Shown: piece by piece, positions 28,305 through 38,407 of the stretch
Numbering within the stretch: the first letter of the stretch is position 1
Layout of the letters: every line of letters begins with the position of its first letter
Source of the DNA: Gemmatimonadota bacterium
GTDB lineage: Bacteria; 4572-55; J002
DNA length: 40,099 bases
Assembly: GCA_003697105.1 (NCBI GenBank)
Contig: RFFQ01000009.1
Coordinates: 1 to 40,099 of the forward strand
Reading direction: 5' to 3'
Made by a program: the position numbers and the translations under genes
The notes under the pieces: generated by a model
Databases searched by the model: none
Told to the model about the DNA's origin: nothing
Seen by the model: only the letters and a program-made list of their open reading frames with translations

Positions 28305-29921
28305 ATGAGTGAATTTAGCGGTTATCTGAAAGATAAAGCCCTCGCCGAAGTCTTAAAAGACCTGTGGAATGATAAATCAACCGGTTGGTTAAGTGTTGTA
28401 ACCGATAAGCTTGATTTGGGCAATATTTACTTGCGGGATGGAATCATCACCTATGCGAATATTGCCAACCAGCAGGAGCGTACCGGTGATATTTTGGTGC
28501 GGCAAGGATACATCACCGAAGAGCAACTTCAACGTGCGATCCGCACCCAACAGGATAATTCGGATCGATTGTTAGGAAGCATTTTGGTTGACTTAAACTT
28601 TATCTCCAACGAAGACCTGAAAGAGGTATTGAAGGAACAAATTACCGAAACTATTTTTGTACTCCTCAATTGGGATAATGGCTATTACAATTTTGCACCG
28701 GATCGGGCGCCGGATACGACCTACATTCCGGTGGAAATTGATACAAATGATATTATTCGGGAAGGAACCGAACGCAAAGAATTGTGGCGCAAAATCCGCA
28801 GTGTTATCCCGAATAATGAGGTAATTCCACTGCAGAACGACGCCCGTGCCCGTGAATTTGACCTGATGACCCTCTCCCTGATCGAAGAACAGATTTTCTA
28901 CAGTGTTGATGGAACAAAAAGTGTTGCTCAGATCATCAACGAGATGGGGATGAGTGAATTTCAAACCCTTGAAATCCTACTAGGGCTTTACAATTTAGGC
29001 TTAATCCAAATGTACGATGTGGAGGCAGACCGGAAGAAAAAGGCACAGCAAGAAATTACGCGGTTGCTGGAAAACGGCAAAGCTCAGATTGAAGCGGGGT
29101 CTTACAACAGCGCATTTGATCTATTCCGGCGCTGTGTAGAACTGGACCCCGATCATTTGGAATCCCGCTTTTATTATGGCTTATGTGCCTTGATGACCGG
29201 TGAATTTGATGAAGCGGAAACAAGTTTCCGCCAAATACGGGAGGTGTACAACCGAAATTTTGCAGTCACGAACAATTTAGCACTCTGTTTAGAAAAGCTC
29301 GGTAAAGAGCAAGATGAAGTTGTGAAAATGTGGTCACGTTGTATTAAATTGCAACCGGAAAATCCCAAAACAAATATTAATCTGGCACTCTATTTATATC
29401 ATGTAAAAAATTATTTTTTGGCAGCAGACCAATTTCGGATGGCACAAGGGAAAAATGAGAAGGATGCCGCCGTATTATACTATCTGGGAGTGATTGCTTG
29501 CCATGAAAATGACATCAAAAAAGCAATAGAATATTTTGATAAAGCCGTCCGGACGAACCCAAATGCAGGTCAATTTCGCAACAATCTGGGTTGGGCTTTG
29601 ACAAAAGCGGGTAACTTGGAAGAAGCAAAAATCGAACTTCAGTATGCACTGCAAATTGACCCCAATGACTGGCGTGCCTATGTCAATCTGGGTAATGTTT
29701 ATTTGGAACAGCACGCCCTTGAGAAAGCCGAAAAAGCGTATCAAGCGGCTTTAGCCCTTCAACCGAAGTCGGGTTATATTTTGTTCAAGTTAGGCACGGT
29801 CTTTGTGCACAAAAAAGATCGAAACCAAGCCTTAAAATATTGGCAACAAGCCGCCGCGGTTAGCCCCAATAATGAGGCACTACAGGAGGCAATCCAGAAG
29901 CTACAACAAGTACCGGCATAA
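28305..29921 (+). CDS. DUF4388 and TPR domain protein
   Basis: A 538-residue soluble protein. Residues 1-130 form the DUF4388 domain (GYLKDKALAEVLKDLW, then GWLSV and IYLRDGIITYA), a module frequent in regulatory proteins. Residues 50-100 include GDILVRQGYITEEQLQRAI, a repeat seen in similar proteins. From about 245 a TPR array of roughly seven repeats follows (LEAGSYNSAFDLFRRCVELD-like, GNLEEAKIELQYALQIDP, LEKAEKAYQAALALQP). This looks like a scaffold or signal-relay protein. It has its own promoter and terminator and faces the cNMP/TPR operon across it. Confidence 0.85.
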   Translation: MSEFSGYLKDKALAEVLKDLWNDKSTGWLSVVTDKLDLGNIYLRDGIITYANIANQQERTGDILVRQGYITEEQLQRAIRTQQDNSDRLLGSILVDLNFISNEDLKEVLKEQITETIFVLLNWDNGYYNFAPDRAPDTTYIPVEIDTNDIIREGTERKELWRKIRSVIPNNEVIPLQNDARAREFDLMTLSLIEEQIFYSVDGTKSVAQIINEMGMSEFQTLEILLGLYNLGLIQMYDVEADRKKKAQQEITRLLENGKAQIEAGSYNSAFDLFRRCVELDPDHLESRFYYGLCALMTGEFDEAETSFRQIREVYNRNFAVTNNLALCLEKLGKEQDEVVKMWSRCIKLQPENPKTNINLALYLYHVKNYFLAADQFRMAQGKNEKDAAVLYYLGVIACHENDIKKAIEYFDKAVRTNPNAGQFRNNLGWALTKAGNLEEAKIELQYALQIDPNDWRAYVNLGNVYLEQHALEKAEKAYQAALALQPKSGYILFKLGTVFVHKKDRNQALKYWQQAAAVSPNNEALQEAIQKLQQVPA

Positions 29922-29924
29922 AAA

Positions 29925-29961
29925 AAGCTGTTTTCAGAACAAGTTGTCCTCAAAACAGCTT
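29925..29961. terminator. Intrinsic terminator between convergent genes
   Basis: AAGCTGTTTT (29925-29934) pairs with AAAACAGCTT (29952-29961), a perfect 10-bp stem. On the minus strand it continues into TTTTTTAT, making a strong terminator for the cNMP operon. On the plus strand it follows the DUF4388 stop by 4 nt but has a poorer T-run. Confidence 0.82.
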
Positions 29962-29987
29962 CTGCCTCCGTTCCCCTAAACCGTAAC

Positions 29988-30449
29988 TTAAAAGCCTGCC
30001 ATCGCGGATAATCCCCGATATTTATCGGTGGTCTCCATGACCCGTTCCGAGAGCGTTCGGAAAAACCCCCATAGCAATTTGTACCCGATATTCCGATTCA
30101 AGTACATTAATTTTTTAAAATCGGTACGATTGATGGTCAACAAAGTAGAAGATTCGTGTGCGATAGCGGTAGCGGATCGCGTGGATTGGTCGATCAACGC
30201 CATTTCTCCAAAATATTCACCTTCTCGCACAATTGCCAGTGCTTCCTCGCCTAATTCGCTAATAATTTTACTGATACGTACTGCCCCCGAAACCACAATA
30301 TAAAACTCATTTCCCTGACTATTTTCCTCAAAAATGGTTACCTCGGCGGGGTATGTCATTTTTTTGGTAATGGCGGCAAGCAATACAATTTCATAATCAG
30401 ATAACGTGTTGAATATGTGTATCTTCCGCAGTAATTGTGTTTTTGTCAT
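29988..30449 (-). CDS. Cyclic nucleotide-binding domain protein (CRP-like fold)
   Basis: A 153-residue single-domain protein. The cNMP-binding beta-roll is complete: FYIVVSGAVRISK, then GEYFGEMALIDQSTRSATAI (74-93), which keeps the Gly-Glu and Arg of a phosphate-binding cassette. There is no HTH, so it is a regulatory binding protein rather than a transcription factor. Its start overlaps the stop of the TPR protein (ATGA at 30446). The last gene of the operon before the terminator. Ligand and effect unknown. Confidence 0.87.
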   Translation of the reverse strand: MTKTQLLRKIHIFNTLSDYEIVLLAAITKKMTYPAEVTIFEENSQGNEFYIVVSGAVRISKIISELGEEALAIVREGEYFGEMALIDQSTRSATAIAHESSTLLTINRTDFKKLMYLNRNIGYKLLWGFFRTLSERVMETTDKYRGLSAMAGF

Positions 30450-32230
30450 GGCTGGGATGTTCCCTCCAACAGGTGCTGTACAATTTGTTGCTGTGCTAGC
30501 GCATTTTGTTGGTCACCCAATGCACGATAGACTCGTTCCAAAGCGGTATGAACCGTAACATCCTGTGGCGCCAATTGCCGCGCTTGCTGAAAATGATAGA
30601 GTGCATCATTATATTTTTGCTGAGTTTCATACAAACTGCCCAACCGTTTATGCAACTCCGGACTGGTGGGATGCGCCGAAAGGGCTTGCTTATACACGAT
30701 AATTGCCAATGAAGGACAATCGGTGGTGGCATAAATACTTCCTAATTCTAGCAACACATCCAGCCGGTTGGGGGCAAGTTGGTCGGCGATTCTCAAATCT
30801 TCAATTGCTCGTTGTTTATGCCCGCATTTTACCCGGCAGAGGGCACGTTGGTAATAAATATCGGCATCGGTGGGGGAAAATTTGAGCGCAGCTAAAAAAT
30901 GCTCTTCTGCTTTTTCGGGCTGAGCCAGAGCACACAGGGCAATTGCCAATTCTTTATGGGCAGCCACATCTGTTGGATGGCGCAACAAAATGGCTTCATA
31001 CGCTGCCACCCGCTGTTTATACCATATCGTCCGCGGGTCGTCCGGTTCGTACACTCGGGATTGATATTTTCGGGGCATCCGGGGAGGGATGGATTTATCC
31101 ACTTCATCGGGTATTATTATCTGTTCTTCTGTGGTAACCCGTTTGGCAGATGCGAGGAATTCTCTCTCAGGTGCTTTTGATGCCGTTGTGATGTCACTAT
31201 CTACCGTTTGATTCGTCTGAGGTTGCGTTCTCTTTATTGGAGGGGATACCGGTGATGGGGCATCGTGCTTAGAGACGTTCGTGTCCGTGATAAGTGGTGC
31301 CGGAGGCATTACCTCTGCCTCCGGGGCGTTTGCCGCGGTATCCTCTATTTCTGCAGAGGTTTCAAAATAATGGAACCAGTTGATCGTCAACGGTAACATA
31401 AAAAAGAGGAGTACAATAACCGCGGAGGCAGTAATCGGGTAAATATGTTCTTGCATGTACCGCCATAATGCGGGGAAACCGTACCCGGACGGCGCTTTTG
31501 ATGGCGGATAATACGTTTGAGTAGTTTCAATAGTTTTGGGTGACGATATAGGAGGCGCCGGTTTCGTTTCTGGAGGTTTCACTGGCGAGATGGTGCGATA
31601 AGACATCTTCGCGGCAAGCCCGTAAAGTTTGCTGGCTTTGTGGTGGTAATGGTCTCGTTCATATTGTTCTGCGGCCGACTTGAATGCCTGTTCTGCCGCT
31701 TTCCACTGTTCTAACTTTTCGTATAATCGACCGGCTTTCAGATATTCATCTGCGGCTTGCGTGTAGCGTTCCAACAGTTGCAAAATTTTACTTGCCGCCA
31801 AATGTGCTTTAGCCGCATCCTCGAAGCGTTCACAATCTGTTAGAATCAGTGCCGCCGTGATTCGCGCATCGGCAGCGTTGGGCAGAAGGTGTGCCTTTTC
31901 AAACTGGTTAGCGGACATGAGCCACATCGTTGCCGAGTTATCCCATTCCTCTGCCAAAGCATACATCAATCCAGCAATAGAATAGCGTTCTGCTCCTTGC
32001 TCCACGTTACCGGCATAAAGTGCCATTTTCGCACTATGCGAGAACGCATATCCGGCTTTACTACGCTGCAGATGTTCGGCATAACTTTCGCCGGCAATTT
32101 GCCAAGATTCTCCGGCATTCTGGTAGGCTTCCGGAGAATTTTCACGGTAAGCCGATTTTTCCTGTACCCGAGCTTGACGCTCTAACTCCAGTAATTCCGC
32201 AAGCATGGAAATGCTTCGGGATTCCCTCAT
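30446..32230 (-). CDS. TPR membrane protein
   Basis: A 594-residue protein with TPR-like helical repeats on both sides of one membrane helix (about 264-286: PITASAVIVLLFFMLPLTIN). The N-terminal half (1-210) has repeated Ala-rich helices such as RYTQAADEYLKAGRLYEKLE. A Pro/Thr/Ser-rich stretch precedes the helix, and a variable acidic stretch follows it. The C-terminal half (about 425-594) has about five canonical TPRs (LAIALCALAQPEKAEEHFLA, IYATTDCPSLAIIVYKQALS). Start ATG 32230 follows GAGGTG by about 7 nt. It lies between two cNMP-fold genes and is likely a docking scaffold. Topology: N-terminal half cytoplasmic, C-terminal half outside, inferred from lack of a signal peptide. Confidence 0.8.
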   Translation of the reverse strand: MRESRSISMLAELLELERQARVQEKSAYRENSPEAYQNAGESWQIAGESYAEHLQRSKAGYAFSHSAKMALYAGNVEQGAERYSIAGLMYALAEEWDNSATMWLMSANQFEKAHLLPNAADARITAALILTDCERFEDAAKAHLAASKILQLLERYTQAADEYLKAGRLYEKLEQWKAAEQAFKSAAEQYERDHYHHKASKLYGLAAKMSYRTISPVKPPETKPAPPISSPKTIETTQTYYPPSKAPSGYGFPALWRYMQEHIYPITASAVIVLLFFMLPLTINWFHYFETSAEIEDTAANAPEAEVMPPAPLITDTNVSKHDAPSPVSPPIKRTQPQTNQTVDSDITTASKAPEREFLASAKRVTTEEQIIIPDEVDKSIPPRMPRKYQSRVYEPDDPRTIWYKQRVAAYEAILLRHPTDVAAHKELAIALCALAQPEKAEEHFLAALKFSPTDADIYYQRALCRVKCGHKQRAIEDLRIADQLAPNRLDVLLELGSIYATTDCPSLAIIVYKQALSAHPTSPELHKRLGSLYETQQKYNDALYHFQQARQLAPQDVTVHTALERVYRALGDQQNALAQQQIVQHLLEGTSQP

Positions 32231-32250
32231 CACGACACCTCTGGGGGCGG

Positions 32251-32706
32251 TTAAACCGTGGCAAAAATATGTTTCAGTAAATTGTTGACATCCCTCAACC
32301 GCGTAGATTGTAAATGGCATAGATGGCGCAACATTTTATAAGCAAGATCACGATGTTCATCTAGCATCTGGTTGAACAAATCCCGATGAAATTCCAGTAA
32401 AGTGCAAGACTCCATCGCAGTGGCAGTTAAATATTGGGCATAATTGCTCACCAGCGAAATTTCACCCAGATAGTCACCGGGCTGAAGGATACCCATCTGC
32501 TGTACCCCCATAATGGGAATATCTTTGGATAGGCGAACCTTACCGCTAACCAGAATATAAAAATGGGGGGAGGGTTTATCTTCCTCCACGATACAGGCAC
32601 CAGCAGGGTAAGAGACCTGACGCGCGGTATCGACCACCATTTCGATTTCATCACGTGCCAAATCGCTAAAAATGGGCAAGGCACGTAATCGCTCGAGGTC
32701 TGCCAT
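32251..32706 (-). CDS. cNMP-binding-fold protein with degenerate cassette
   Basis: A 151-residue beta-roll protein like the one at 29988. The pattern FYILVSGKVRLSK and GDYLGEISLVSNYAQYLTAT is present, but the conserved phosphate-binding arginine is absent (YAQYLTAT in place of xxRSAT). It may not bind a cyclic nucleotide, or may bind another ligand. Lies between the phosphatase gene (9 nt upstream) and the TPR gene (20 nt downstream). Confidence 0.83.
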   Translation of the reverse strand: MADLERLRALPIFSDLARDEIEMVVDTARQVSYPAGACIVEEDKPSPHFYILVSGKVRLSKDIPIMGVQQMGILQPGDYLGEISLVSNYAQYLTATAMESCTLLEFHRDLFNQMLDEHRDLAYKMLRHLCHLQSTRLRDVNNLLKHIFATV

Positions 32707-32715
32707 TAGACGTAC

Positions 32716-34446
32716 TTACAATCGTTTGATAATGATGAGGGTTATGTCGTCGTATTGGGGTTCTTCGCCGACGTAGTATTGAAGCTCACTGCGGATTTTT
32801 TCAGCTAACTCGCGTGCGGATAAATGCGCAAAACGCCGAATAACATCAATCAAGGCGTCCTCGCCAAATTCTTCGTGATGGCTGTTGATGGCTTCATCCA
32901 CGCCATCTGTAAAAAACACGAGGGTATCCCCGGGTTGAATACCATAGAGATGTTGTGAGTAACTCTGATTGGGAAAAACACCTAAAATGAGTCCACTTTC
33001 ATTTAGCCGTTCGATCTCTCCATCGGCATGATGGATGATCGGAAAGCTGTGCCCGGCATTGCAGTAGGTGAGCGTTTTCTGCGTCTGGTTTAGAACCCCG
33101 TAAAAAAGGGTGATAAACTTTCCGGTTTCGGTGGTACGGCAAATCGCATCATTGACTTTGCTCATAATTTCCGAGATACTAAACCGGTTTTCAACTTGTG
33201 CCCAGAGGGTCGCTTGTAAACTCGCCATCAATAGGGATGCCGGTGTTCCCTTCCCGGACACATCTCCGATAGCAATTCCTAAATCTTGCGGTGTTATCGG
33301 AATAAAGTCAAAATAGTCACCACTCACATGCCGGCTTGGAATATTCATGCCAAAGATGTCAAAACCTTCTAGGGTAGGCGCACTTTTGGGTAATAACCGT
33401 TTCTGGATACTTCGGGCGACGCGTAGCTCTTCCTCCATGCGTTGTTTCTCAAGGGTTTCTTCAAAAAGACGGGCGTTCTCCAGAGCGATCATGGCTTGTG
33501 TTGCCAAAGCAGAAAGGTAATCCCGGTCGTGCTCGGTGAATTGAATATTGAGCCGTTTTTTCCCCAGGCCCATTATCCCATGAACTTCATCTTTAAGACG
33601 CATGGGTACAAGGACTTCTAAGTCCAGTGCGGAACAAAGGTCCCTCAAGGTCGTATCCGAAATTTCATGGCGGAGCATCGCCCGGTGGAAGTCTTGCACG
33701 AGTGCAGAGAAGTTCATTGCCCCCAACACGTGTTGTACCGCCCTCGTGACCCGAAATCCCTTGTACACCTTAATGACCGGTTTACCCGCGTCCTCCAAAA
33801 TAATGGCGCAACGGCTGATCATCAATTGCCCCATTAAACTGAGAATGAGAGTGTTCAAAATTTCGTCAGTGCGCAAGGTAGATGTCAACTCTTTTGTCAC
33901 ATCAAACAACGTTTGCATCTCATGGATTTTCAAATCCAGATGGCGGTTCGTGGTTTTCAACCGGTCATACATCAAACCGTTTGTGATTGAATTGGCGGAG
34001 ATATTTGCCAGAAAATGTAAAAAGATGAGTTCATCCTCGGTAAACCGCTCCCCAGATGCTTTGCCGCCCATGCCCAGCATTCCCCGGTTCACATGACGAG
34101 TACGAATGGGGAAAACCAGTTCGACACCCCACCCACGGAGCTGTTGCACCCACGGGCGGTCATCGTCTGGCGAAAGAAAAAGATAATCCGATTCAATGGG
34201 ATCATCGATAGTAAGCACCTGATCAATTAGCTGTTCCCGCCCTTTGCCACGCGCCAGTTTGATGGTGAAACGGTTCTGATCCTGCCGCAGTAAAATCAAA
34301 CCACGTGTTGTGGGGACCCTTCCAAGAGCGGTAAGCAAGATGTTATCTAGCACCGATTCTAGCGTCAATGCGGACGTCACAACTCGACCCACTTCAAACA
34401 GGGTATCCAGCGTAAAGAGTTTTTGCTCAATGTGTTGTTCAGACAT
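32716..34446 (-). CDS. GAF-GAF-SpoIIE (PP2C-type) phosphatase
   Basis: A 576-residue soluble serine/threonine phosphatase of the RsbU/SpoIIE family. Two GAF domains (about 15-170 and 180-335) precede a coiled linker and the RsbU-type region ARSIQKRLLPKSAP, then the PP2C domain (about 385-575). The latter has GDYFDF, AIGDVSGKGTPASLLMA, CNAGH, FTDGVDEA and YDDITLIIIKR, with metal-binding Asp residues preserved. In partner-switching systems it would dephosphorylate an anti-sigma antagonist, but no STAS or anti-sigma gene is visible. The cNMP and TPR genes downstream form an operon with it. Confidence 0.92.
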   Translation of the reverse strand: MSEQHIEQKLFTLDTLFEVGRVVTSALTLESVLDNILLTALGRVPTTRGLILLRQDQNRFTIKLARGKGREQLIDQVLTIDDPIESDYLFLSPDDDRPWVQQLRGWGVELVFPIRTRHVNRGMLGMGGKASGERFTEDELIFLHFLANISANSITNGLMYDRLKTTNRHLDLKIHEMQTLFDVTKELTSTLRTDEILNTLILSLMGQLMISRCAIILEDAGKPVIKVYKGFRVTRAVQHVLGAMNFSALVQDFHRAMLRHEISDTTLRDLCSALDLEVLVPMRLKDEVHGIMGLGKKRLNIQFTEHDRDYLSALATQAMIALENARLFEETLEKQRMEEELRVARSIQKRLLPKSAPTLEGFDIFGMNIPSRHVSGDYFDFIPITPQDLGIAIGDVSGKGTPASLLMASLQATLWAQVENRFSISEIMSKVNDAICRTTETGKFITLFYGVLNQTQKTLTYCNAGHSFPIIHHADGEIERLNESGLILGVFPNQSYSQHLYGIQPGDTLVFFTDGVDEAINSHHEEFGEDALIDVIRRFAHLSARELAEKIRSELQYYVGEEPQYDDITLIIIKRL

Positions 34447-34470: not shown

Positions 34471-34548
34471 TCAAGCGGTACCGGGTATGGGAGCATCCGG
34501 TGTTTCCCGCAGGTTATAGATATTAATATTCGATGAGTCTTCCGCCAT
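34471..34548 (-). CDS. Possible 25-residue small protein between rtcB and the phosphatase gene
   Basis: ATG 34548 overlaps the rtcB stop as TAATG and follows AAAGG by about 4 nt. The ORF encodes MAEDSSNINIYNLRETPDAP, then IPGTA and TGA. It lies 24 nt before the phosphatase start in the same direction. No family is recognised. The overlap is suggestive of translation, but such a short ORF may arise by chance. Confidence 0.3.
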   Translation of the reverse strand: MAEDSSNINIYNLRETPDAPIPGTA

Positions 34549-36026
34549 TAGCCTTTAACGACACAGATAGGGCGCATTCGCGCCACTTTTTTGGAGATAC
34601 CCGCACCATGTACGACATCTACCACCTGATTAACATCTTTATAGGCTTCCGGTGTTTCTTCCCGCACGGTGTCCCGTCCTTCATAGCGGACTAAAATGCC
34701 TTTTTTTTCTAATTCTTGGGGGATCGAACGCCCTTTGGTGAGTTTGATCGCTTTTCGCCGGCTAAGAACCCGCCCAGCACCATGACACGTTGAACCGAAC
34801 GTTTCATTCATGGCTTGTTGTGTTCCAACCAAAATATAAGAAGCGGTTCCCATATCCCCCGGAATCAACACCGGCTGTCCAATGGTTTGGTAGGCTTGAG
34901 GGATGTGAGGATTACCGGGACCAAAGGCACGGGTGGCGCCTTTGCGATGTACCATGACATCCACGGGCTGTTTTGAACGGCAGTAGATGCATTGATGTTG
35001 TTCTCGTTTGGCAATATTATGGGCGACATCGTAAATTTGGTGCATTTGGAGGCTCTTTGCCGAGGTTTTGAAGACCTGCTCAAAACTTTCCCGCGTCCAA
35101 TGGACAATCATTTGACGGTTTGCCCAGCCATAATTGGCAGCACACGCCATCGCGGCAAGATACTCTTGCGCCACATCACTTTGGAGCGGAGCACACGCCA
35201 ATTGCCGGTCTGGTAAATGCAAGTCATACCGGTCCATGGCCTCTTCCATCACATGCAAAAAGTCCGTACAAATTTGATGTCCAAATCCGCGCGAACCACA
35301 ATGGATCATCACCACCGCTTGCCCCTCAAATAACTGCATCACGCTGGCGGCTTGCGGGTCAAAAATTTTATCGACAATCTGCACCTCTAAAAAATGATTC
35401 CCAGAACCGAGACTGCCTAATTGAGGTGCTCCCCGTTTTCGTGCCCGTTCCGAAGGGATCGATTTATCCGCACCTTTCAAACAGCCATTTTCTTCGGAAA
35501 ACTCGAGGTCACTGTTCCAACCATAACCATTTTCTACCGCCCACTGACCGCCTTTGATCATCACCTGTTCTAAATCTTTAGGGCTGAGTTTGATTCGCCC
35601 TTTGCTACCAACACCACAAGGCACATTCCGAAAAAGGGTATCTACCAACTGCCGTTGTTTTTGCCGGATGTCCTTTTCGTGGAGTTCTGTGCGGAGCATC
35701 CGCACTCCGCAGTTAATATCGTATCCCACACCACCGGGGGAGATAATACCATCTGCCATCGTAGAAGCAACAACCCCCCCGATGGGAAAACCATAGCCCC
35801 AATGGATGTCGGGCATCGCCATGGCACGCCCGACGACGCCGGGCAACGTCGCGGTATTGGCAACTTGCGCCGGTGCTTGATCTTTCCGAATATGCCGGAT
35901 CAGCTCATCATTGGCAAAAATCAATCCGGGGACATTCATCCCTTCCTGATACGAGACAGGAATTTCCCACCGGTAGGAATCCACCTGACGTAACTCACCT
36001 TCCCAACGTTTCGAGAATTGGCTCAT
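34548..36026 (-). CDS. rtcB: RNA ligase RtcB
   Basis: The GTP-dependent ligase that joins RNA 2',3'-cyclic phosphate or 3'-phosphate ends to 5'-OH ends in tRNA splicing or RNA repair. The 492-residue protein contains GGVGYDINCGVRML (D103, C106), GSGNHFLEV (N210, H211), H242 in IHCGSRG, H336 in YDVAHNIA, the longer GSTCHGAGRVLSRRKA (H415 nucleotide-linked His), and GAGISKKVARMRP. All metal and GMP-linked residues are present. Start ATG 36026 follows AAGGG by about 8 nt; the frame reaching 36089 lacks a good site. No RtcA or RtcR gene is present. Confidence 0.97.
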   Translation of the reverse strand: MSQFSKRWEGELRQVDSYRWEIPVSYQEGMNVPGLIFANDELIRHIRKDQAPAQVANTATLPGVVGRAMAMPDIHWGYGFPIGGVVASTMADGIISPGGVGYDINCGVRMLRTELHEKDIRQKQRQLVDTLFRNVPCGVGSKGRIKLSPKDLEQVMIKGGQWAVENGYGWNSDLEFSEENGCLKGADKSIPSERARKRGAPQLGSLGSGNHFLEVQIVDKIFDPQAASVMQLFEGQAVVMIHCGSRGFGHQICTDFLHVMEEAMDRYDLHLPDRQLACAPLQSDVAQEYLAAMACAANYGWANRQMIVHWTRESFEQVFKTSAKSLQMHQIYDVAHNIAKREQHQCIYCRSKQPVDVMVHRKGATRAFGPGNPHIPQAYQTIGQPVLIPGDMGTASYILVGTQQAMNETFGSTCHGAGRVLSRRKAIKLTKGRSIPQELEKKGILVRYEGRDTVREETPEAYKDVNQVVDVVHGAGISKKVARMRPICVVKG

Positions 36027-36281
36027 ATTTTTACCCTTACTACGAAAATAATCGTGTATGAAAAAAAGGCATATTTCAATGTGTTTCACCCAGCCATAGC
36101 TGGCAGAAGTGCCGTTATCCGATGTGGAGACGCTTCAAATTCTAGGTGAATCAAATTCTGGGGAGATCACATCCCTTTTGCAAAAAGGGTAACGGTATCG
36201 TAATGGAAGGGAGGGCACAGTGTCAAGGTTTTTCACGAATCAAGTCCGCACACAAGAGAGCCGTTTCGCCCAAAAAACTTC
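36027..36281. other. Intergenic region upstream of rtcB and the glycosyl-phosphate transferase gene
   Basis: Together with 36311-36497, this divergent gap is 471 nt. No convincing long ORF is present. A small hairpin CCAGC-CATA-GCTGG lies near 36092-36106. No clear rtcB promoter was found by eye in this stretch. Confidence 0.4.
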
Positions 36282-37639: not shown

Positions 37640-38407
37640 ATGACATTGGTAAAATGCCATTCTTATTTGCTAGAGCGCATCAAGCACCATTCCGCTTCGC
37701 GGGGTGGTGCTTTCTTACCTTTAATCGACCCCGATAAACAAGACTACGCCACGACGATCCGCATTGCCTGTCACTGCCAAGACGCCGGCGCCGATGCCAT
37801 TTTAATCGGAGGGAGTCTTTTATTTTCCAATGACTTAGATACGTTGATCCAAAATATAAAAGAAGAAGTATCAATCCCGTTGATTCTCTTTCCCGGGAGT
37901 TCGATGCACCTCTCCCCGTATGCGGATGCAATCTTTTATCTCTCGTTGATCAGCGGGCGTAACGCCAACTTGCTTATTGGGGAGCACGTTATTTCCGCAC
38001 CGATTATCCACAAATACCAATTGGAAGCCATCCCGACCGGATATATGCTGATCGAATCTGGTCGCGTTACCTCCGTCGAATTTGTCAGTAATACGCGCCC
38101 CATTCCTCGCAACAAGACCTCCATCGCTGTTGCCCATGCCTTAGCCGCAGAATATTTAGGTATGAAGTTAATTTATTTGGAAGGAGGGAGTGGTGCATTG
38201 CAAAGCGTACCGGTGGAAATGATCCGCGCGATACGAGAAGTTGTGCAGACCCCACTTATTGTGGGGGGCGGCATCCGTACCCCTGAAGAGGCGGCGGCAA
38301 AAGTTGAGGCGGGAGCAAATATTGTAGTGGTGGGTACCGCAATTGAGCAACAGGATGATCCTACGTTCGTTCGGACGATGGCAGCGGCAGTACACCAATC
38401 TGGATAG
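37640..38407 (+). CDS. Geranylgeranylglyceryl phosphate synthase-like (PcrB/GGGPS, group II)
   Basis: A 255-residue TIM-barrel that joins a prenyl diphosphate to sn-glycerol-1-phosphate, the first step of archaeal-type ether lipids in archaea. Conserved elements: D30-P-D32-K33 (LIDPDK), GGSLL (57-61), YLEGGSGA (E181), VGGGIRTPEEA and VVVGTAIE. The phosphate-binding motifs are complete and the length is normal for the family. Bacterial group II homologues occur in FCB-type bacteria. The prenyl chain length is not deducible here. The start ATG at 37640 has a weak ribosome site, and it lies 17 nt after the transferase gene. Confidence 0.9.
   Translation: MTLVKCHSYLLERIKHHSASRGGAFLPLIDPDKQDYATTIRIACHCQDAGADAILIGGSLLFSNDLDTLIQNIKEEVSIPLILFPGSSMHLSPYADAIFYLSLISGRNANLLIGEHVISAPIIHKYQLEAIPTGYMLIESGRVTSVEFVSNTRPIPRNKTSIAVAHALAAEYLGMKLIYLEGGSGALQSVPVEMIRAIREVVQTPLIVGGGIRTPEEAAAKVEAGANIVVVGTAIEQQDDPTFVRTMAAAVHQSG

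Follow-up and report, generated by a model that had tools for sequence, protein, structure and literature searches.

We analyzed a stretch of DNA of 40,099 nucleotides (hereafter the window), which constitutes the entire contig C143 (GenBank RFFQ01000009.1) of a Gemmatimonadota draft genome of 4.18 Mb (G000). The analysis focused on four adjacent minus-strand genes encoding, in this order, a SpoIIE-type serine phosphatase, a cyclic nucleotide-binding-fold (cNMP-fold) protein, a tetratricopeptide repeat (TPR) membrane protein, and a second cNMP-fold protein, which a preliminary description of the sequence had proposed as a possible uncharacterized signaling module. Pfam searches confirmed the domains assigned to these genes in that description. 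The operon comprises the following features:

32716–34446, minus strand: serine phosphatase of 576 amino acids (aa) with two GAF domains, a helical linker and a SpoIIE/PPM domain (Pfam SpoIIE, 166.5 bits, and Pfam GAF)
32251–32706, minus strand: cNMP1, a stand-alone cNMP-fold protein of 151 aa with glutamine in place of the cassette arginine (Pfam cNMP_binding, 65.2 bits; alignments)
30446–32230, minus strand: TPR membrane protein of 594 aa (Pfam TPRs, hydropathy, charge and start site)
29988–30449, minus strand: cNMP2, a stand-alone cNMP-fold protein of 153 aa with the cassette arginine (Pfam cNMP_binding, 78.9 bits; alignments)
29920–29961, minus strand: predicted intrinsic terminator of the operon (sequence and fold)

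The phosphatase and cNMP1 genes are separated by 9 bp and the cNMP1 and TPR genes by 20 bp (with the TPR start at 32230), and the TPR and cNMP2 genes overlap by 4 bp. A hairpin at 29925–29961 with a 10-bp stem (terminator fold −27.9 kcal/mol, z −4.2) is the predicted terminator of this operon, because its T-run lies on the minus strand. The terminator mentioned in the preliminary description, across which a DUF4388-TPR gene faces the operon, is thus present and belongs to the minus-strand genes.

In the AlphaFold model of the phosphatase (mean predicted local distance difference test score (pLDDT) 81, predicted template modeling score 0.49), two helices span residues 137–189 and 305–351, the second of which runs into the PPM domain. 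The closest solved folds of this domain are the phosphatase domains of RssB, Rv1364c, SiaA and SpoIIE. Residues D377, D395, D514, D566 and D567, which we take to be the metal-binding aspartates, are invariant in an alignment of eight sequences.

A scan of named genomes with the phosphatase sequence retrieved 28 loci, 18 of which (L039–L055 and L059) contain full-length relatives that align over essentially the whole protein at 31–40% identity. Most of them come from KSB1, Calditrichota or bacteria that lack a phylum label; Ignavibacteriales, Bacteroidetes, Gracilimonas and Actinomycetota each label one member. Two of the loci, L041 and L042, are almost identical and do not count as independent. 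Inspection of neighborhoods, at least six in number, revealed genes for a small STAS protein and for a HATPase resembling RsbW directly upstream of the phosphatase gene. Hidden Markov models (HMMs) built from four STAS and five HATPase proteins of the relative loci detected HATPase_c_2 upstream of SpoIIE in all 18 full-length relatives and STAS in 17, with the contig of L040 ending before the STAS position; 13 STAS and 13 HATPase matches were independent of HMM building. At L053 the pair is located 3.8–4.3 kb away, with inserted genes in between. Among the ten shorter matches, both partner genes were found upstream in five (L056, L057, L058, L063 and L065) and elsewhere on the locus in two (L061 and L066), and neither STAS nor HATPase was found on the locus in three (L060, L062 and L064). 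As judged from sequence, the gene order of the relatives is that of standard partner switching. Such a pathway next to the phosphatase in related genomes counts against a separate module.

The preliminary description had also stressed that no cyclase, STAS or anti-sigma gene is close to the operon. Indeed, STAS, HATPase_c_2 and Guanylate_cyc had no match anywhere on the window contig, but for the partner genes this absence reflects gene separation. G000 contains 24 STAS and 40 HATPase_c_2 family matches, and when all 24 of the former and the best 7 of the latter were scored with the HMMs of the relatives, an adjacent STAS–HATPase pair on contig C83 (L109, 7843–8211 and 8218–8691) reached 166 and 216 bits, respectively, compared to 49 and 59 bits for the runner-up candidates. 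The C83 STAS protein also exceeds the NCBIfam cut-off for anti-sigma antagonists (74.7 vs. 53.45 bits) and has an intact ISSAGLG motif, and the N-box and G-box residues of the HATPase are intact. The pair is surrounded by unrelated genes without SpoIIE; a search for a sigma factor or another HATPase target, confined to these neighbors, identified none. The phylum is represented in the searchable set by two genomes, G000 and a second genome of the same class (G001). G001 has the pair on contig C23 (137 and 175 bits) and the SpoIIE relative (38–39% identity) on C43, beside pseudopilin-type and other genes. The position of pair and phosphatase on separate contigs in both genomes indicates that the phosphatase gene has left the triad in both sampled members of the phylum.

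A tree of 84 sequences was calculated from the PPM domain, leaving out identical or contained rows and domain matches shorter than about 190 positions, and a second tree was based on full-length sequences. In the former, the window phosphatase and its relative on C43 are the sole G000 and G001 sequences in the clade of triad members (support 100/99), and the window sequence stays with triad members in the full-length tree. Five of the 84 rows are receiver-type proteins that entered through a weak match (L041_6221, L042_3652, L046_9741, L048_9772 and L059_9732) and stand apart on a branch of 3.36.

The phosphate-binding cassette of cNMP1 reads GEISLVSNYAQYLTATA, with Arg changed to Gln and Ser to Tyr, and that of cNMP2 reads GEMALIDQSTRSATAIA, with Glu and Arg both present. 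The alignments thus agree with the earlier assignment of one protein without and one with the arginine, but the supposed distinctiveness of this pairing did not hold up. The arginine is absent from 9 of 24 cNMP domains (5 of the 12 in G000, 4 of the 12 in G001). At this frequency, about 47% of pairs would be expected to be mixed, which makes such a pair unremarkable; we therefore rejected it as a signature. Among solved chains, the stand-alone cNMP proteins matched PKA-R, PKG and CRP-type sequences. The best relative of cNMP2 (42%) is on contig C15 of G001, far from the SpoIIE relative of that genome, and a cNMP2 search across the 18 relatives, G000 and G001 retrieved many CRP-size and some short proteins, none of which was traced to a SpoIIE locus.

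Two further G000 loci encode fusions of an N-terminal cNMP domain with SpoIIE: a 396-aa protein without the arginine on C135 and a 483-aa protein with it on C175. A chance test of cNMP genes near SpoIIE was post hoc for the window locus and was therefore rerun leaving the window out; two of eight cNMP loci were then no more than 500 bp away from a SpoIIE domain, with 0.05 expected (P about 0.001, contig edges ignored). When 386 genomes were searched with the C175 fusion, three of them other than G000 gave matches at E ≤ 1e-45. Both domains are covered by just one of these matches, G040:C57, and there only if internal stops are read through. At the Myxococcota locus L061 (5609–8849), genes for HATPase_c_2, STAS, a stand-alone degenerate cNMP protein, a histidine kinase and a second STAS protein stand in a row. 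The cNMP protein, of 154 aa and without cassette Glu and Arg, follows directly after the HATPase and STAS genes, an arrangement in which partner switching in Myxococcota may employ degenerate cNMP domains. The two fusions, the proximity test and L061 make a functional tie of cNMP-fold proteins to the SpoIIE-type phosphatase plausible. Since 18 Guanylate_cyc (PF00211) domain matches occur genome-wide in G000, these abundant class III cyclase domains could provide a cNMP ligand, and together with the two fusions they render cNMP input to SpoIIE phosphatases plausible in this genome. This much remains of the module proposed in the preliminary description. Pycsar-type defense combines a cyclase with an adjacent cNMP-fold effector that has a TIR or membrane domain; PADLOC matched only the cNMP part of Pycsar-type models and no cyclase is on the contig, and no defense assignment was given.

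Two other loci combine SpoIIE and second-messenger genes. On contig C26 of G000 (L105, 4745–9243), genes for a REC-GAF-GAF-PAS-cyclase, SpoIIE and a TPR protein adjoin; the phmmer match of this TPR protein to DUF4388 was ruled out by Pfam. A cluster in G001 (L101; C15:217000–233000) contains DUF4388, STAS/HATPase, STAS, two SpoIIE and a cyclase gene.

The TPR membrane protein has N-terminal SNAP-like TPRs, one transmembrane segment near residues 266–286, an acidic and proline-rich linker, and C-terminal TPRs. Its mechanically assigned start at 32320 overlaps cNMP1, whereas the ATG at 32230 lies 20 bp past the cNMP1 stop and is preceded by AGAGG; for both reasons, 32230 is most likely the start. 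An N-in/C-out topology is likely, because the downstream flank of the transmembrane segment is strongly negative (net −7 over 30 residues) and the upstream flank slightly positive (+1). In a single-sequence model (pLDDT 54.5), the C-terminal TPRs scored about 90 and the N-terminal half poorly. With the full-length protein as query in 98 genomes, almost only C-terminal TPRs were matched among the matches listed. Within the ortholog set of 20 genomes, the N-terminal half was found only in G000 itself, and a search of 385 other genomes gave two weak partial TPR stretches and no convincing homolog.

Two neighboring genes bear on the delimitation of the operon:

34548–36089, minus strand: RtcB RNA ligase gene (Pfam RtcB, 599.9 bits)
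28305–29921, plus strand: convergent gene for a protein with DUF4388, a motif of the MshEN type for cyclic di-GMP (c-di-GMP), and TPRs (Pfam; NCBIfam NF053729)

The RtcB gene precedes SpoIIE on the minus strand at a distance of 101 bp. No minus-strand terminator-like site is listed in this gap, and the operon may therefore begin at RtcB as a possible upstream member of the transcript. In NCBIfam, RtcB comes closest to models built for RtcB proteins with inteins, at scores below the respective cut-offs.

The DUF4388-TPR protein matches the MshE-related c-di-GMP motif with 59.9 bits (cut-off 38), and its G001 relative also carries the motif (44.1 bits). According to PMC5013675, MshEN receptors bind c-di-GMP through two 24-residue motifs with a 5-residue spacer. 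The first motif of the window protein fits this pattern nearly completely, differing by a Thr where the pattern has Leu and by minor substitutions at hydrophobic positions; by eye, the second lacks the leading Arg and the second Gly in register with the pattern. Unlike in the MshEN receptors described there, the motif is fused to DUF4388 and TPRs and not to a pilus or secretion ATPase. It sits inside or next to the DUF4388 region, and two further DUF4388 proteins of G001 (L121 6976–8004 and L123 5191–6345) pass the NF053729 cut-off as well, so that part of DUF4388 may overlap c-di-GMP-binding modules.

Family membership, gene neighborhoods and the intact C83 pair, all read from sequence, point to the window protein, an ordinary-looking enzyme of the bacterial stress type, as the phosphatase component of a conserved partner switch. 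We assign a probability of roughly 0.6 to the overall reading that it is a partner-switch phosphatase separated from its partners and accompanied by lineage-specific cNMP and TPR accessories. The two GAF domains would sense a signal and activate the PPM domain through the helical linker, which, by analogy with RsbU and RsbZ, may pair and activate the phosphatase domains. The PPM domain would dephosphorylate a STAS protein of the anti-anti-sigma type, presumably the one encoded on C83, and the dephosphorylated STAS protein would capture the RsbW-like HATPase kinase and release the target of this kinase. In the phylum, the phosphatase gene would have been split from the STAS–HATPase pair, which stands alone on C83, and in the window lineage it would head an operon that also encodes two stand-alone cNMP-fold proteins and a TPR scaffold anchored in the membrane. 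We infer this biochemistry and all accessory functions: the TPR and cNMP proteins would most likely be accessory inputs or localizers of the phosphatase, with cNMP2 as receptor of a cyclic nucleotide (cAMP or cGMP) and cNMP1 as its non-binding partner. An elaboration in which the TPR protein, with its cytoplasmic and periplasmic halves, gathers cNMP2 and cNMP1 around SpoIIE and STAS phosphorylation is set jointly by the state of the envelope and by cAMP or cGMP, and in which degenerate cNMP domains, working solely through contacts with other proteins, are recurrent partners of STAS and HATPase (as also at L061), is doubtful.

Several observations weigh against the preferred reading. Directly beside SpoIIE, not one of the 28 named loci carries a gene for a cNMP or membrane TPR protein, with flanks being short at L040, L061 and L066, and the complete SpoIIE-cNMP1-TPR-cNMP2 operon occurs in only one of the genomes examined; the gene set, for which co-conservation in relatives had been suggested as a check, is thus absent from G001 and from all named loci. 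A cNMP gene lies 4–6 kb from SpoIIE at L056, L057, L061 and L063, and a DUF4388-TPR-like gene 2 kb from it at L064. None of the 12 cNMP matches in G001 is within 10 kb of a SpoIIE match. The PPM tree places the window sequence weakly (81/86) with the second-copy SpoIIE proteins L050_13405 and L051_9808; the full-length tree splits it from these (98/98), with inner forks left open. The C83 HATPase falls below the NCBIfam cut-off for RsbW (131 vs. 145 bits), the pairing of the C83 proteins with the window phosphatase is deduced from the orthology of neighbors, and because G000 has 14 SpoIIE matches, crosstalk or another substrate is possible. Membership of RtcB in the operon may, in addition, argue for a loose grouping of genes. 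Some of these data would fit chance neighbors, that is, SpoIIE and cNMP1-TPR-cNMP2 merely being co-transcribed after a rearrangement, with the latter three forming a unit of their own that has nothing to do with partner switching, or none. The lack of co-occurrence elsewhere, the pseudopilin-type surroundings of the G001 phosphatase, the unlinked position of the G001 cNMP2 relative, and the near-uniqueness of the N-terminal TPR half all speak for this scenario. However, the four genes share one strand, very short gaps or an overlap, and a common terminator, and two other G000 loci fuse cNMP to SpoIIE; we thus consider chance neighborhood rather unlikely, although it deserves serious attention.

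A new self-contained module, in which SpoIIE acts on a non-STAS target and is gated by a competent and a degenerate cNMP protein on a TPR scaffold, would agree with the operon structure, the unusual TPR protein, and the lack of STAS and HATPase on the contig. It is nevertheless highly improbable given the tie of the phosphatase family to STAS–HATPase in 17 to 18 of 18 relatives, the persistence of the orthologous pair in G000, and the commonness of arginine-less cNMP domains. Slightly less credible still is a module that includes the DUF4388-TPR protein and is connected through this protein to the control of polarity or motility. The convergent position of its gene is matched by a REC-DUF4388 protein convergent with the C135 fusion. 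Yet the DUF4388-TPR protein carries a c-di-GMP motif, its gene follows a same-strand gene at 83 bp with EAL and PilZ genes nearby in the window, and its closest G001 relative is on C15 and thus unlinked to the SpoIIE relative on C43. Enrichment of DUF4388 near SpoIIE is weak at best, with one of ten loci showing it within 3 kb (P 0.20) and two of ten within 5 kb (P 0.05). We see no reason to join this gene to the minus-strand operon and leave it outside.

If the accessory reading is true, the operon would show in a concrete instance how cyclic nucleotides feed into a partner switch; the papers searched offered little on such a link. Even if it is false, the lack of STAS and anti-sigma genes beside SpoIIE does not imply a new pathway, because the pair can leave the locus and yet stay elsewhere in the genome.

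Elsewhere in the window, a tmRNA gene was found at 847–1212 on the minus strand (179.4 bits). A plus-strand gene at 37640–38407 belongs to the geranylgeranylglyceryl phosphate (GGGP) synthase family (NCBIfam subfamily 300.9 bits, cut-off 247; GGGP equivalog 221.6 bits, cut-off 161.55), an archaeal-type ether-lipid enzyme family, here in a bacterial draft genome.

Adjacency of the partners does not define partner switching, as B. subtilis RsbP is encoded away from the sigB operon. PPM phosphatases of the SpoIIE/RsbU kind dephosphorylate STAS proteins, according to PMC11418112. The window phosphatase shares its N-terminal sensor, helical linker and PPM domain with RsbU of Bacillus subtilis and RsbZ of Clostridioides difficile, and its tandem GAF domains with RsbZ, as these are described in PMC12143880. 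As in systems of this type, the family of the window protein neighbors STAS and an RsbW-like kinase; unlike in them, the window gene itself is apart from the STAS–kinase pair and beside cNMP and TPR genes. cNMP1 and cNMP2, at about 150 aa and with PF00027 only, resemble stand-alone CRP-fold proteins without a DNA-binding domain, among which no solved relative names a function for the operon context. The cNMP_binding domain appears in a figure legend on PP2C domains in PMC12088040, and Myxococcales PP2c-type phosphatases with a C-terminal cNMP domain, for which regulation by cyclic nucleotides was suggested, are mentioned in PMC2887360. Like these proteins, the G000 fusions physically couple a cNMP domain to a phosphatase of the PP2C superfamily, but the G000 fusions carry it N-terminally on SpoIIE-type enzymes, and the window encodes its cNMP domains as proteins of their own.

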